The notes beneath the pieces were generated by a model, which saw only the letters and a list, made by a program, of their open reading frames with translations, made no database searches and had not been told where the DNA came from. Source: Gemmatimonadota bacterium (GTDB lineage: Bacteria > JAAXHH01). From it: a stretch of DNA of 42,707 nucleotides. The stretch covers positions 1 to 42,707 of the forward strand of contig JAPOYX010000002.1 of NCBI GenBank assembly GCA_026706345.1, in the 5' to 3' direction. The position numbers and the translations under genes are program-made. Below are positions 16,052-22,399 of this stretch, one piece after another (positions within the stretch are counted from its first letter, which is position 1; every line of letters begins with the position of its first letter).

Positions 16052-16372
16052 ATGGCGAAGTACATGTATCGCACCAAGTACACGCAGTCGGGCCTGCAGG
16101 GATTGCTGAAGGAAGGCGGCACGGGCAGGCGCGCGGCCCTTACGCAGACGATCGAAGGGATGGGAGGCGCCCTGGAAGGATTCTACTACGCCATGGGGGA
16201 CGACGATCTCATCCTGATCGCCGAGATTCCCGACGAAGCGACCGCGACGGCGATCGCCCTCAACGTGGCCGCGGCGGGCGCGCTGAAAGTCTCGACCACG
16301 GTCCTGATTTCACCGGAAACGATCGACGAAGCGGTAAGCAAGGGCGTATCCTACCGGTTGCCCGGCGCCTGA
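16052..16372 (+). CDS. GYD-domain protein
   Basis: This 106-residue protein reads MAKYMYRTKYTQSGLQGLLKEGG...GGALEGFYYAMGDDDLILIAEIPDE, the pattern of the GYD family of small dimeric alpha/beta-barrel-like proteins. The function of the family is not established. The ATG at 16052 has GGAGGAA 6 nt upstream and is preferred over a GTG at 16037. A separate promoter follows the gene, so it need not be co-transcribed with the aldehyde oxidoreductase genes downstream, though same-strand adjacency hints at a link. Confidence 0.83.
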   Translation: MAKYMYRTKYTQSGLQGLLKEGGTGRRAALTQTIEGMGGALEGFYYAMGDDDLILIAEIPDEATATAIALNVAAAGALKVSTTVLISPETIDEAVSKGVSYRLPGA

Positions 16373-16431: not shown

Positions 16432-16460
16432 TTGCCAATCCTTTTTCGTGGCATTATACT
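16432..16460 (+). promoter_or_regulatory. Strong sigma70-type promoter before the aldehyde oxidoreductase genes
   Basis: TTGCCA (16432-16437, 5 of 6) is followed by a 17-nt spacer and TATACT (16455-16460, 5 of 6). It lies in the otherwise empty interval between the GYD gene and the ferredoxin gene and predicts a transcript start near 16467. That gives a leader of about 177 nt. Confidence 0.6.
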
Positions 16461-16524
16461 GATTGGTAACCCCTGTAGTTTCTTAGGCAATCATCATAAT
16501 AAAGCACCACATCGCTGCGCTTCT

Positions 16525-16583
16525 CGATGGCGGGTTGGACCCTTCGGTGAAGGCCCGTCAAGCAGGCTATCGTTTTTGTTTTT
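16525..16583 (+). promoter_or_regulatory. Structured leader with terminator-like hairpin (candidate attenuator or riboswitch platform)
   Basis: An outer stem CGATGGC (16525-16531) pairs with GCTATCG (16566-16572, one G-U). It encloses an inner stem GGG/CCC (16532-16534 with 16554-16556) and a hairpin CCTTC-GGT-GAAGG (16541-16553). An unpaired GTCAAGCAG arm lies on the 3' side. The outer stem is followed at once by TTTTTGTTTTT (16573-16583), as in an intrinsic terminator. It sits between the promoter at 16432 and the ferredoxin start at 16644. A molybdenum/tungsten-cofactor riboswitch is one possibility given the genes, but I cannot match its consensus from memory. Confidence 0.5.
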
Positions 16584-16643
16584 AGGACTTTTTCAGGAAG
16601 AAAGGCCTCCAAGCCCAGCTTATCGTTACAGAAGGGAGTCGGT

Positions 16644-17135
16644 ATGGCTAAATCTCTACGCATCATTCCCGAAAAATGTACCGGGTGCATGCAGTGCGAA
16701 CTGGCCTGTTCCTGGGTGCAGACGGGCATGTTTCAACCATCCCGGTCGCTGATCCGCGTGAACATATTCGACGAGCAGGCCAGCTACGCGCCGTACACAT
16801 GCTTCCAGTGCGACGAAGCCTGGTGCATGACGGCCTGCCCCGTGAACGCCATCAGCATCGACGCGGATACCGGCGCCAAGGTCGTGGGCGATGCCAACTG
16901 CGTGGGATGCGGGTTGTGTACCATCGCCTGTCCCTTCGGCACGGTGTTCTACAATCCCGATACGCAGAAGGCCTTCAAGTGCGATCTGTGCGACGGCAAT
17001 CCCGCCTGCGCGGTCGCCTGCCCGACGGGCGCCATCGAGTATACCGAGAGCGAGTCGGCCGACTGGCTGGGCGGCTGGGCCGAGAAGGTCAACGAGTCCT
17101 ACCTGGCATCCATCGAGGGAGGGAACGCGGCATGA
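16644..17135 (+). CDS. Four-cluster ferredoxin subunit of aldehyde oxidoreductase (AorA-like)
   Basis: This 163-residue protein has sixteen cysteines in four sets: residues 12/15/18/22, 53/56/61/65, 86/89/92/96 and 113/116/122/126. They would hold four [4Fe-4S] clusters. It resembles the HycB/AorA type of electron-transfer subunit. In the three-subunit aldehyde oxidoreductase of Aromatoleum such a subunit relays electrons from the tungsten protein to a FAD subunit and can polymerise into a filament. An AGAAGGGA Shine-Dalgarno precedes the ATG. The stop overlaps the next gene's start by 4 nt (ATGA), so equimolar synthesis with the first catalytic subunit is likely. Confidence 0.88.
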   Translation: MAKSLRIIPEKCTGCMQCELACSWVQTGMFQPSRSLIRVNIFDEQASYAPYTCFQCDEAWCMTACPVNAISIDADTGAKVVGDANCVGCGLCTIACPFGTVFYNPDTQKAFKCDLCDGNPACAVACPTGAIEYTESESADWLGGWAEKVNESYLASIEGGNAA

Positions 17136-18979
17136 GCAATGGCGGATGGACAGGCACGATCCTGCGCGTCGATCTGACCACCGGTCGGATCTCCAAAGAG
17201 TCCCTCAACATGGACTGGGCCAAGTCCTTCGTGGGCGGGCGCGGTCTCGCGGCCAGGTACCTCTATGAAGAGATGGACCCGGCGGCGGACGCGCTGGACC
17301 CGGACAACAAGATGATTTTCGCGACCGGTCCCATGACCGGCACGAACGCCTCGACGAGTTCACGCTACATGGTGGTCACCAAGGGGGCGCTGACGAACGC
17401 CATCACCACGTCCAACTCGGGCGGCCACTGGGGACCGGAACTGAAGTTCGCCGGCTACGACATGCTGATCGTGGAAGGCCGGGCGCCGGTTCCGTCCTAC
17501 ATCTCCATCTGCGACGACGACGTCCGGATCTGCTCCGCCGAGCACCTCTGGGGAAAGACGGTATGGGAGACGGATGATATCGTCCGGGAGGAGTCGGGGC
17601 AACACGATACGGTCGTTACCTGTATTGGTCCGGCGGGCGAAAACCTCGTGCGTTTCGCCGCCATAGTCAATGACCGGCACCGGGCCGCCGGACGATCCGG
17701 CGTCGGCGCGGTCATGGGTTCGAAGAACCTCAAAGCCATTGCCGTACGCGGTACCGGGGGCGTGCCCATCGCCGACCCGCAGAAGTTCATGTCGGCCATG
17801 TGGGAGATGAAGAGCAAGCTGGTCGAGCATCCGGTAACGGGTGAGGGTCTGGCCGCATACGGCACCGCGGTGCTGGTCAACATCATCAACGAGAGCGGCG
17901 CACTGCCGACGAACAACCACCAGGTCTCGCAACTCGAAGGCGCGGACAACATCAGCGGGGAGACCCTGGCCGATACGCGGCTGGTGGCCAACAAGGCGTG
18001 CTTCGGCTGCACGATCGCCTGCGGCAGGGTGTCTCAGCTGCCGGGCGAGGCGCAGGACAAGTTCACCGTGACCACCCGGCCCCACAACTGGAAGATCGCG
18101 GTGGAGGGACCGGAGTACGAGAACGCCTGGGCCATGGGTGCCGACTGCGGCATCAACGACCTGGACGCGCTCATCAAGGCGAACGCCATGTGCAACGAAC
18201 TGGGCATGGACCCGATCTCCTTCGGGGCGACGCTCGCCGCGGCCATGGAACTGTACGAAAGCGGCGCCGTGAGCGATGAGCAGACCGGCATGCCGCTGAA
18301 CTTCGGGAGCGGTGATGCGCTCGTCGCCATGACGGAAAAGGCGGCTTACCGCGAAGGCTTCGGCGATGAACTGGCCGAGGGCTCCAAGCGCATGACCGCC
18401 AAGTTCAACCGGCCCGAGTTCTTCATGGGCGTGCGCGGTCAGGAATTCCCGGCCTACGACGCCCGGGCGATCCAGGGCATGGGTCTGGGTTACGCGACCT
18501 CGAACCGGGGCGCCTGCCACCTGAAAAGCTACACGGTCGCCCCCGAGATCCTGGGCATCCCGGAGAAGATGGATCCGGCCGTGACGGAAGGCAAGGCGGA
18601 GATCACCAAGATCTTCCAGGACGCCACCTGCACCGTGGACGCGTCGGGCCTCTGCCTGTTCCTCACCTTCGGCGTGGGACTGGACGAAATACAGCCCCAG
18701 CTCGAAGCGGTGACCGGCATTTCCTACACCGTGCCCGAACTGCTGGAAGTCGGGGAGCGCGTCTGGAACATCGAACGCATGTGGAACCAGCGGGCCGGCT
18801 TCACGGGCAAGGACGACACGCTGCCGAAGCGGCTGCTCGAAGATCCGATCCCCGATGGCCCGACCAAGGGCGAAGTGAACCGGCTCGGCGAGATGCTGCC
18901 GGAATACTACGAACTCCGCGGCTGGAACGCGGAAGGCGAACCCACGCAGGAGAAACTGGCGTCGCTGGGACTGGCGTAG
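17132..18979 (+). CDS. Tungsten-type aldehyde oxidoreductase catalytic subunit 1 (AorB-like)
   Basis: This 615-residue protein of the aldehyde:ferredoxin oxidoreductase family has the N-terminal signature LRVDLTTGRI and the conserved GGHWGPELKFAGYD (about residues 97-110). The cluster ligands are CFGCTIAC (Cys290, 293, 297) with a distant Cys508 in DASGLC. These match the four cysteines of archaeal AOR. Members oxidise aldehydes to acids with a bis-pterin tungsten (occasionally molybdenum) cofactor. The frame is open further upstream, but the ATG at 17132 is set by the 4-nt overlap with the ferredoxin gene and by family alignment. It is clearly a paralogue of the protein at 19091. Confidence 0.9.
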   Translation: MSNGGWTGTILRVDLTTGRISKESLNMDWAKSFVGGRGLAARYLYEEMDPAADALDPDNKMIFATGPMTGTNASTSSRYMVVTKGALTNAITTSNSGGHWGPELKFAGYDMLIVEGRAPVPSYISICDDDVRICSAEHLWGKTVWETDDIVREESGQHDTVVTCIGPAGENLVRFAAIVNDRHRAAGRSGVGAVMGSKNLKAIAVRGTGGVPIADPQKFMSAMWEMKSKLVEHPVTGEGLAAYGTAVLVNIINESGALPTNNHQVSQLEGADNISGETLADTRLVANKACFGCTIACGRVSQLPGEAQDKFTVTTRPHNWKIAVEGPEYENAWAMGADCGINDLDALIKANAMCNELGMDPISFGATLAAAMELYESGAVSDEQTGMPLNFGSGDALVAMTEKAAYREGFGDELAEGSKRMTAKFNRPEFFMGVRGQEFPAYDARAIQGMGLGYATSNRGACHLKSYTVAPEILGIPEKMDPAVTEGKAEITKIFQDATCTVDASGLCLFLTFGVGLDEIQPQLEAVTGISYTVPELLEVGERVWNIERMWNQRAGFTGKDDTLPKRLLEDPIPDGPTKGEVNRLGEMLPEYYELRGWNAEGEPTQEKLASLGLA

Positions 18980-19015
18980 CGCCCGATCCGGCTCTTGGAG
19001 CCTGGGTTTTCCGCA

Positions 19016-19052
19016 GGGCGCGCTCTTAAGCCAGATGACTGGAGCGCGACCC
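19016..19052 (+). promoter_or_regulatory. Intercistronic hairpin between the two AOR genes
   Basis: CGCGCTC (19019-19025) pairs with GAGCGCG (19042-19048) across a 16-nt loop. A flanking GGG (19016-19018) can pair with CCC (19050-19052). No T run follows, so termination is unlikely. It could affect transcript processing or stability between the catalytic subunit genes. Confidence 0.3.
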
Positions 19053-19090
19053 CACATCACCCGGCTTGAGCCGAGGAATGGAGTTTCTTC

Positions 19091-20920
19091 ATGACACACG
19101 GGTGGGCCGGCCATATTCTGCGGGTGGACCTGTCGCGGGGCAAGGCGACCAAAGAGCCCCTGAGGCTGGACTGGGCCGAGGAATACATCGGCGGCCGCGG
19201 GTTGGCCGCCCGGTACCTCTACGAGGAGATGGACCCCTCGGTCGACGCCCTCGGTCCCGACAACAAGCTGATCATGGCCACCGGACCGCTCACGGGCACC
19301 AACGCCTCGTGCGGCTCCCGCTACATGGTGGTGACCAAGGGTTCGCTCACGGGCGCCATCACGACGTCCAATTCAGGCGGCCACTGGGGCCCGGAGCTCA
19401 AGTTCGCCGGCTACGACCTGGTGATCGTGGAAGGCCGGGCGGATCGTCCCTGCTACCTCCTCGTCGACGATGACCGCGTCGAGATCCGCGACGCCGGCGG
19501 CGTGTGGGGCAAAGTGATCTCGGAGACCGAGGACGCCATCCGCGACGAAACCGGCATGCCCGAACTGCGGGTGGCCGGCATCGGACCGGCGGGCGAGAAC
19601 TTGGTGCGGTTCGCGTGCATCGTCAACGACAAGCACCGGGCGGCCGGCCGTTCCGGCGTCGGCGCCGTCATGGGTTCCAAGAACCTGAAGGCCATCGCCG
19701 TACGCGGCAACCAGGGCGTGCGGATCGCCCGTCCCCGGAATTACATGTCCGCCATCTGGTCCTACCATGATCACCTGGCGGAGAGTCCCGGCCGGCAGGG
19801 CCTCACGGAACTGGGCACGGCGCCCACGGTCGACCTGGTCAACACCTTCGGCGGCCTGCCGACACGCAATTTCACGGCCGGCCAGTTCGAGGGCACCGAG
19901 GCGATCAACGGGGAGAGCATCAAGGATAACTGGCTGATCGCCAACAAGGCCTGCTTCGCCTGCAATATCGCCTGCGGCCGCGTGACCCAGGTGTCCCCCA
20001 ACGCCGACAAGTACATGGTCAACATGCATCCCCGCAACTGGAAGGTAGCCGGGGAGGGACCGGAGTACGAGAACCTCTGGTCGCTGGGGGCCGACTGCGG
20101 CGTGGACGACATGGACGCCATCGTCATGGCCAACTACCTGTGCAACGACCTGGGCATGGATCCCATCTCCATGGGCGCCACGCTGGCCACGGCGATGGAG
20201 ATGTACGAGCGGGGTCTGTTGAGCGATGAGCAGACGGGCATGGCGCTCCGGTTCGGAGACGGCAAGGCCCTGATCGCCATGACGGAAGCCACGGGTTTCC
20301 GGGAAGGATTCGGCGACGAGCTGGCCGAAGGCTCCAGGCGGATGACCGAGAAGTTCGAGCATCCGGAATACTTCATGGGCGTCAAGGGACAGGAGTTCCC
20401 CGCCTATGATCCCCGGGGATTCCAGGGCATGGGCGTGGCCTACGCCACCTGCAACCGCGGCGCCTGTCACCTGAGGGCCTGGACGCCCGGCATCGAGACT
20501 TCCGGAGAATACGATCCCCACGGTACCGACGGGAAATCGGTCTGGGTGGCCGAGGAGCAGAACCGGACCACGGCCCACGACGCCACGGGCATCTGCATGT
20601 TCACCACGGCGGGTGCGCCCCTGGAAGACCTGATCCCCGTGCTGTCCGCGGCCACCGGCGTGGATTACACCATGGACGACTTCGTGCACATCGGCGAACG
20701 GATATGGAACATCGAGCGGCTGTGGAATCTCAAGGCCGGCCTCACCGCGGCCGATGACACGCTGCCTAAGAGACTGATGGAAGAAGCCCATAAGGAAGGA
20801 CCTTCCGCGGGGGTGACCGTCGACCTCGACGCCATGCTGCCGGACTACTACGCGGCCCGGGGCTGGACGGCGGACGGACGGCCCACCACGGAAAAGCTGA
20901 TAGAGCTGGGACTCGCGTAA
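19091..20920 (+). CDS. Tungsten-type aldehyde oxidoreductase catalytic subunit 2 (AorB-like)
   Basis: This 609-residue second copy of the catalytic subunit aligns with the protein at 17132 along its whole length; long stretches such as GGRGLAARYLYEEMDP and NSGGHWGPELKFAGYD are identical. Cluster ligands are conserved: CFACNIAC (Cys288, 291, 295) and Cys502 in DATGIC. Differences concentrate in about residues 210-320 and 465-500, where substrate-pocket and surface residues would be expected. The copies may therefore differ in substrate. A GGAG Shine-Dalgarno sits 7 nt before the ATG. It lies 111 nt after the first copy and 108 nt before the FAD subunit gene. Confidence 0.9.
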   Translation: MTHGWAGHILRVDLSRGKATKEPLRLDWAEEYIGGRGLAARYLYEEMDPSVDALGPDNKLIMATGPLTGTNASCGSRYMVVTKGSLTGAITTSNSGGHWGPELKFAGYDLVIVEGRADRPCYLLVDDDRVEIRDAGGVWGKVISETEDAIRDETGMPELRVAGIGPAGENLVRFACIVNDKHRAAGRSGVGAVMGSKNLKAIAVRGNQGVRIARPRNYMSAIWSYHDHLAESPGRQGLTELGTAPTVDLVNTFGGLPTRNFTAGQFEGTEAINGESIKDNWLIANKACFACNIACGRVTQVSPNADKYMVNMHPRNWKVAGEGPEYENLWSLGADCGVDDMDAIVMANYLCNDLGMDPISMGATLATAMEMYERGLLSDEQTGMALRFGDGKALIAMTEATGFREGFGDELAEGSRRMTEKFEHPEYFMGVKGQEFPAYDPRGFQGMGVAYATCNRGACHLRAWTPGIETSGEYDPHGTDGKSVWVAEEQNRTTAHDATGICMFTTAGAPLEDLIPVLSAATGVDYTMDDFVHIGERIWNIERLWNLKAGLTAADDTLPKRLMEEAHKEGPSAGVTVDLDAMLPDYYAARGWTADGRPTTEKLIELGLA

Positions 20921-21028: not shown

Positions 21029-22399
21029 ATGGCTACAGAACACGTGATTATTGGCGGCGGACCGGGCGGGATGAACGCCATCGAAACGATCCGGGGTTAC
21101 GACGCGGACGCGTCCATCACCCTGATCTCCGATGAGCCGGCCTATTCCCGCATGGCCCTGCCCTACTACATCTCGGGGAACATCCCGGTCGAACAGGTCA
21201 ATACCGGAGACGACGACTATTTCAGCGGGCTGGGAGTGAAGACCCGCTTCGGGGCCAGCGTCACCGAGGTGAACCCCTACGCGAACATGATCACGCTCAG
21301 CGACGGTTCGATGGTGCCCTTCGACAACCTGCTGATCGCCACGGGGTCGTCCGCCCAGAAGCTGAACATCCCCGGCGCGGACGGCGACGGGGTCCACAAT
21401 CTCTGGACCGTGGCGGACGCGGAAAAAACCGTGAGCGCCCTCGGCAGCGATGCCGAGGTGGCCTTCATCGGGGCCGGGTTCATCGGTTTCATCATCCTCA
21501 ACGCGATGCATAAGCGCGGCGCCCGCCTGAAGGTGATCGAACTGGAAGACCAGGTGCTGCCCCGCATGCTGGACGCCCAAGGCGCTTCCCTGGTGGGCTC
21601 CTGGCTCGAGTCCCAGGGCGTCGAAGTCCACACCGGCGTGAGTGTCCAGGCCATCGACCACGGCCACGACGGCGTCAAGACCCTGCAGCTTTCCGACGGT
21701 TCGTCCACCCGGGCGGACGTGGTCATCGTGGCCACGGGGATCAAGGCCAATATAGGCTTTCTCGAAGGATCGGGCATCGAGACCAACCAGGGCGTCCTGG
21801 TCAACAACCGGTGCCAGTCCAACGTAGCCAACGTGTATGCGGCGGGCGACGTGGCCGAGGGACCGGACCTTTCCACCGGCGGACAGGCAGTGCACGCCAT
21901 ACAGCCCACCGCCGTCGACCACGGCCGGATCGCGGGCGCGAACATGGCCGGTCAGGACGTGGAGTATCCCGGCAGCCTGCTGATAAATATCCTGGACGTG
22001 TGCGGGCTGCAGTGCGCCAGTTTCGGCGACTGGTCCGGCGACGGCGACGTCACCGAGGTCATCAACGCCAACCGCCCGGTCTACCGCAAGCTTATCTGGG
22101 ACGGCTCCACGATAACCGGCGCCATCATGCTCGGACCCGCGGACGACGTGGCCATGTTGAACGACATGGGGATGATCAAGGGGTTGATCCAGGCGAAGAC
22201 GGACCTGGGCGCGTGGAAGCAGCACATCCAGGCGAACCCGACGGATATCCGGCGGCCCTACGTAGCCACGAAGACCGCGGAGAAGATGCTGGCTCTTACC
22301 TCGCTCGGCAAACCCTCCGAGCACCGCGCATACCAGCATACGAAGGATGCCGGAAAGGACCGCAGCGCGCACCAGGTATTCGTCGATTCCGTGGGATAG
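21029..22399 (+). CDS. FAD/NAD(P)-dependent oxidoreductase, AorC-like subunit
   Basis: This 456-residue protein of the pyridine nucleotide-disulfide oxidoreductase class I fold has an FAD motif IIGGGPGG (residues 7-14) and LLIATGSSAQ. An NAD motif is AFIGAGFIG (about 145-153), and a second FAD contact is VYAAGDVAE (about 269-277). No redox-active CxxxxC pair is present, so it is more like NADH:acceptor or ferredoxin reductases. By analogy with Aromatoleum AorC it would pass electrons between the ferredoxin subunit and NAD. AAGGAG precedes the ATG by 6 nt. A C-terminal domain of about 100 residues carries DVCGLQCASFGD, as in other reductases of this type. Confidence 0.85.
   Translation: MATEHVIIGGGPGGMNAIETIRGYDADASITLISDEPAYSRMALPYYISGNIPVEQVNTGDDDYFSGLGVKTRFGASVTEVNPYANMITLSDGSMVPFDNLLIATGSSAQKLNIPGADGDGVHNLWTVADAEKTVSALGSDAEVAFIGAGFIGFIILNAMHKRGARLKVIELEDQVLPRMLDAQGASLVGSWLESQGVEVHTGVSVQAIDHGHDGVKTLQLSDGSSTRADVVIVATGIKANIGFLEGSGIETNQGVLVNNRCQSNVANVYAAGDVAEGPDLSTGGQAVHAIQPTAVDHGRIAGANMAGQDVEYPGSLLINILDVCGLQCASFGDWSGDGDVTEVINANRPVYRKLIWDGSTITGAIMLGPADDVAMLNDMGMIKGLIQAKTDLGAWKQHIQANPTDIRRPYVATKTAEKMLALTSLGKPSEHRAYQHTKDAGKDRSAHQVFVDSVG

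Follow-up and report, generated by a model that had tools for sequence, protein, structure and literature searches.

AorABC of Aromatoleum aromaticum, a tungsten aldehyde oxidoreductase (PDB entry 8c0z, PMC10413684), is built from the same three subunit types that are encoded by the operon considered here. Among described leader RNAs, the Moco motif is reported to lie upstream of molybdenum- or tungsten-cofactor genes, accompanied by terminator or ribosome-site platforms (PMC2408646). This Moco/Tuco RNA (RF01055) and the leader described below are alike in preceding genes of molybdenum- or tungsten-cofactor enzymes, whereas our leader has no covariance match, no recognised multistem core and a distribution confined to one genus. 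Attenuators that rely on an intrinsic terminator offer a second comparison, with a promoter, a leader, a hairpin and T-run, an alternative pairing and an operon all present at this locus also. In contrast to those systems, the T-run and closing stem are unevenly conserved here, and no sensor domain or leader peptide was recognised in the leader. The single likeliest reading, which we favour tentatively and at somewhat less than an even chance, is that the operon, of the aorABC type, is preceded by a genus-specific leader working as a leaky attenuator.

The window, by which we mean the whole 42,707-nucleotide stretch of DNA that was analysed, derives from a metagenome-assembled genome of an uncultured genus in a small phylum, and isolate names suggest that the genus is probably sponge-associated. 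The + strand of the window carries genes for an aorA-like polyferredoxin (16644..17135; 8c0z_C, E 1.2e-54), two aorB-like aldehyde ferredoxin oxidoreductases (copy 1 at 17132..18979, with Pfam AFOR_N and AFOR_C; copy 2 at 19091..20920; 8c0z_A, E 3.3e-195) and an aorC-like FAD/NAD oxidoreductase (21029..22399; 8c0z_E, E 2.7e-77), and the three operon proteins searched against the PDB found their best matches in the A, B and C subunits of AorABC. The operon differs from Aromatoleum AorABC in having two aorB copies in tandem; this pair, spanning 17132-20920, is flanked by a single aorA-like and a single aorC-like gene. The spacer that separates the copies (18980-19090) contains GGCTCTTGGAGCC and then TGGGTTTTCC; the T-run is missing in the relatives compared. 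A GYD-domain gene (16052-16372) lies on the same strand as the operon, directly upstream of the promoter and leader.

The same leader was recovered from eleven other genomes of the genus and from one stray contig, giving 13 sequences including the window. That contig (L021; WTFX01000013.1, 1-3344) is titled Microthrixaceae and carries an aorA 99% identical to that of the genus together with the genus leader; judged by these sequences, it was probably mis-binned. Alignment of the leaders divides them into clade A (the window, G008, G004, G005 and G010) and clade B (the rest). The nearest relative, G008, is 96% identical to the window over leader and aorA, and leader identity to the window is 0.61-0.75 in all other relatives. 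A covariance model of the leader, R1, hit each of the 10 genus genomes scanned once and only once, with no match in six more distant genomes or in 72 other aorA-like loci, and BLAST returned no second copy in the window's own genome; within the collections scanned, the leader is therefore limited to one operon and one genus. Across the genus, four-fold degenerate sites of aorA (16644-17132) show 82-95% identity and so exceed the leader in conservation, which suggests codon constraint or recombination and makes these sites unusable as a neutral yardstick.

The preliminary description had proposed a TTGCCA-17-TATACT promoter followed by a 177-nt leader, and both agree with what we find. The promoter is present at 16432-16460 on the + strand. 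A hexamer match alone is at chance level, with 5 found against 4.2 expected in 15 kb, but all 12 hexamer bases are invariant in the 13 genus sequences while the DNA upstream fails to align well between clades (0.2-0.5 identity, gaps counted), and for this reason sequence conservation supports the promoter well. Its spacer is 17 in 5 sequences (clade A) and 16 in 8 sequences (clade B), and TTGACA-17-TAGAAT occupies a comparable position in another genus of the same family. A promoter scan gave no further + strand site from the promoter to aorA. The untranslated leader, whose start is predicted, runs on the + strand from 16467 to 16643 (177 nt; 171-177 nt in the genus) and is followed by the ATG at 16644.

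Of the multi-stem structure that had also been described, one conserved hairpin and a set of possible alternative pairings are seen; taken over its full length, the leader folds no better than shuffled sequence (z +0.84). The main hairpin, P2 (TGGCGGGTT ... GGCCCGTCA, + strand, 16528..16560), keeps all five of its core pairs (16529-16533/16555-16559) in 11 of the 13 sequences. Its arms are more conserved than its loop, with identity between clades A and B of 0.79 for the 5′ segment comprising P1 and P2, 0.71 for the P2 3′ arm and 0.42 for the P2 loop. Alignment pairing analysis identified an alternative helix, P1, with its 5′ arm CATCG at 16510..16514 (+ strand). Most consensus helices share a hub segment, CGATGGCGG in the window (+ strand, 16525..16533; consensus CGATGACGG), for which three mutually exclusive pairings are possible: with the CATCG at 16510-16514, with 16555-16559 plus 16568-16572 in the terminator stem, or with 16620-16625, just upstream of the Shine-Dalgarno site. 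In P1 and P2, 96% of cells are paired; one-sided changes account for four additional pair types, and two-sided compensatory changes are absent from the 13-sequence alignment. Conserved pairing among orthologous leaders, by which the preliminary description would have the switch judged, is seen as retained P2 pairs and not as two-sided compensation. From column permutation, 4.0 (sd 2.3) consensus helices would be expected, and 8 possible ones were found; none of P1, P2 and the long-range helix is individually above permutation, and the predicted probability of P1 in the window itself is at most 0.05. The mutually exclusive pairings of the hub would give the leader a switch-like anatomy, albeit one lacking such compensation.

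As had been stated, a T-run, TTTTTGTTTTT (16573-16583), lies 60 nt before the ATG. It directly follows a terminator-like closure ending at 16572, the whole site occupying 16513..16583 on the + strand. A simple terminator scan of the window did not report this site because the strong P2 stem (GGCGGGTT/GGCCCGTC, 16529-16536/16552-16559) leaves a gap of 13 nt to the T-run, which is reached only if the closure is extended, with interruptions, to 16572. A d'Aubenton-Carafa-type score was computed at every leader position with interrupted and branched closures allowed; this generic model from the literature was not re-fitted, and its values serve as relative measures only. For the window, d comes to roughly +6 to +12 according to how gaps in the tail are scored. 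The best-scoring site falls just after the P2 hairpin in 13 of 13 leaders; only the score of the window is positive, and in the relatives d at this site ranges from -9 to -38. Per 100 dinucleotide shuffles, the observed score was reached by 0 for the window, 1 for G011 and 3 each for G009, G004 and G005, and by 22 for G008, 17 for G006, 13 for G001 and 10 for G010. The window site is unusual for the organism, since d of at least 0 occurs at just 3 of the 46 convergent gene ends scored in its own genome, a base rate taken from 278 kb with a crude ORF-based gene call. Among the leaders of other aorA-like operons, 1 of 71 has d of at least 0 against 2.8% of shuffles, showing no excess of terminator-like sites above shuffles. 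By these scores the window has a strong site, and the relatives have weak to moderate ones. The terminator-like hairpin that had been claimed is accordingly retained in part: it lies downstream of the promoter and beats 100 of 100 shuffles, and it is formed by an interrupted closure that is weak in the relatives.

In the leaky attenuator that we favour, transcription would start near 16467, as the conserved promoter indicates, and the nascent leader would fold the P2 hairpin, a step supported by the alignment. A free hub (CGATG) would then join the closing stem, forming a terminator with its stem ending at 16572 and its tail at 16573-16583, at which part of the transcripts would stop. Were the hub instead paired with the upstream CATCG (P1) or some other partner, the closing stem would fail and transcription would read through into aorA; conceivable triggers are a small molecule, a protein, translation or the speed of transcription. 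The terminator-like site is inside the leader, past the promoter of the operon, and would therefore affect transcripts of the operon itself. Stem and T-tract are found in the window through the interrupted closure only and are weak in the relatives, and the antiterminator pairings found are possible ones, individually not above permutation. Conditional read-through, as first suggested, keeps the position of the site, the conserved hairpin and the alternative pairings in its favour, and is weakened by the poor conservation of the T-run and closing stem, a stretch whose identity between clades (0.49) is among the lowest in the leader.

Known modes of control were also considered. None of 4227 Rfam models matched the leader at gathering or relaxed thresholds, and the only two sub-threshold matches near it (SAM-V and TtnuCD4) are on the opposite strand with E 5-8. 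The Moco model RF01055 found nothing in the window or in the 11 genus genomes run; across 15 genomes of the phylum its one sub-threshold hit, in G014, scored 20.3 bits where the cut-off is 36. The suggestion of a molybdopterin or tungsten cofactor riboswitch of the known class is therefore not supported. Leader-peptide attenuation was rejected because the short frames are not conserved in the genus alignment; in the window, a frame of 7 codons starts with the ATG at 16527, but it is different or absent in relatives and has no ribosome site. A CsrA-controlled leader was likewise set aside, as no CsrA gene was found in the genome.

Second to attenuation, and possible if somewhat unlikely, is a plain structured leader with no switch, in which the promoter and Shine-Dalgarno region are under selection, the hairpin is passive or stabilises the mRNA, and the window alone has acquired its long T-run, recently and by accident. 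The T-run is indeed broken in the nearest relative (ATCGTTATCGTTTCC in G008) and absent in several others, the lack of two-sided compensatory changes agrees with such a leader, and conservation of the leader is no higher than that of the inner operon spacer between the two aorB genes (identity 0.53-0.78). This explanation is at odds with the recurrence of a stem and T-rich tract at the homologous position beyond permutation. When columns of the 3′ flank were permuted with relatedness kept, the observed mean was reached in 3 of 150 permutations (7 of 150 without the window), and permutation of the whole region reached it in 0 of 150, which lends modest support to a recurrent terminator-like site.

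Control at the level of translation is unlikely. Here the hub and the CUUC before it would pair with UUAUCG or UCAUCG and GAAG, upstream of and into the Shine-Dalgarno site, so masking it, and P1 would free it. The most conserved block of the leader (+ strand, 16600..16643) does contain both the Shine-Dalgarno GGGAG (16634-16638) and the long-range partner of the hub, TTATCG (16620-16625), and identity between clades over the corresponding alignment columns 131-183 is 0.89, the best in the leader. The long-range helix (columns 61-66 with 160-165) is kept with four further pair types, and several predicted full-length folds place the hub in long-range pairs. Set against this, the pairing is broken in G010 and imperfect in G004, and the helix alone does not exceed column permutation.

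A little less probable again is that a DNA-binding regulator controls the promoter and the leader is incidental. Its possible operator would be the dyad TTGCCAATC-N20-GATTGGTAA (16432..16469), which overlaps the -35 and +1, is kept in 5 of 5 clade A sequences and occurs as a single copy in the genome, with 0.08 matches expected in the window at no more than 3 mismatches; clade B, however, keeps the promoter and not the dyad. We consider it improbable that the leader is an undescribed, genus-restricted RNA that senses a tungsten-enzyme or aldehyde signal and controls both termination and ribosome access through the three-way segment. Least probable is that the hairpin is just the terminator of the GYD gene. 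That gene is the upstream same-strand gene in 11 of 11 genus relatives tested, at 88-99% identity, and tblastn did not detect it in the three loci that belong to other genera. As the preliminary description had held, the site is not merely the end of that transcript: it comes 200 nt after the stop codon of GYD, is 3′ of the conserved promoter, would hit the operon's own transcripts too, and keeps a nearly constant distance from the promoter while the distance from GYD to promoter varies between clades.

On present evidence the leader is a candidate worth a termination assay and not yet a discovery. If confirmed, leaky attenuation at this site would mean that an AorABC-type tungsten enzyme is controlled at the RNA level, in uncultured bacteria whose gene regulation has received little study.
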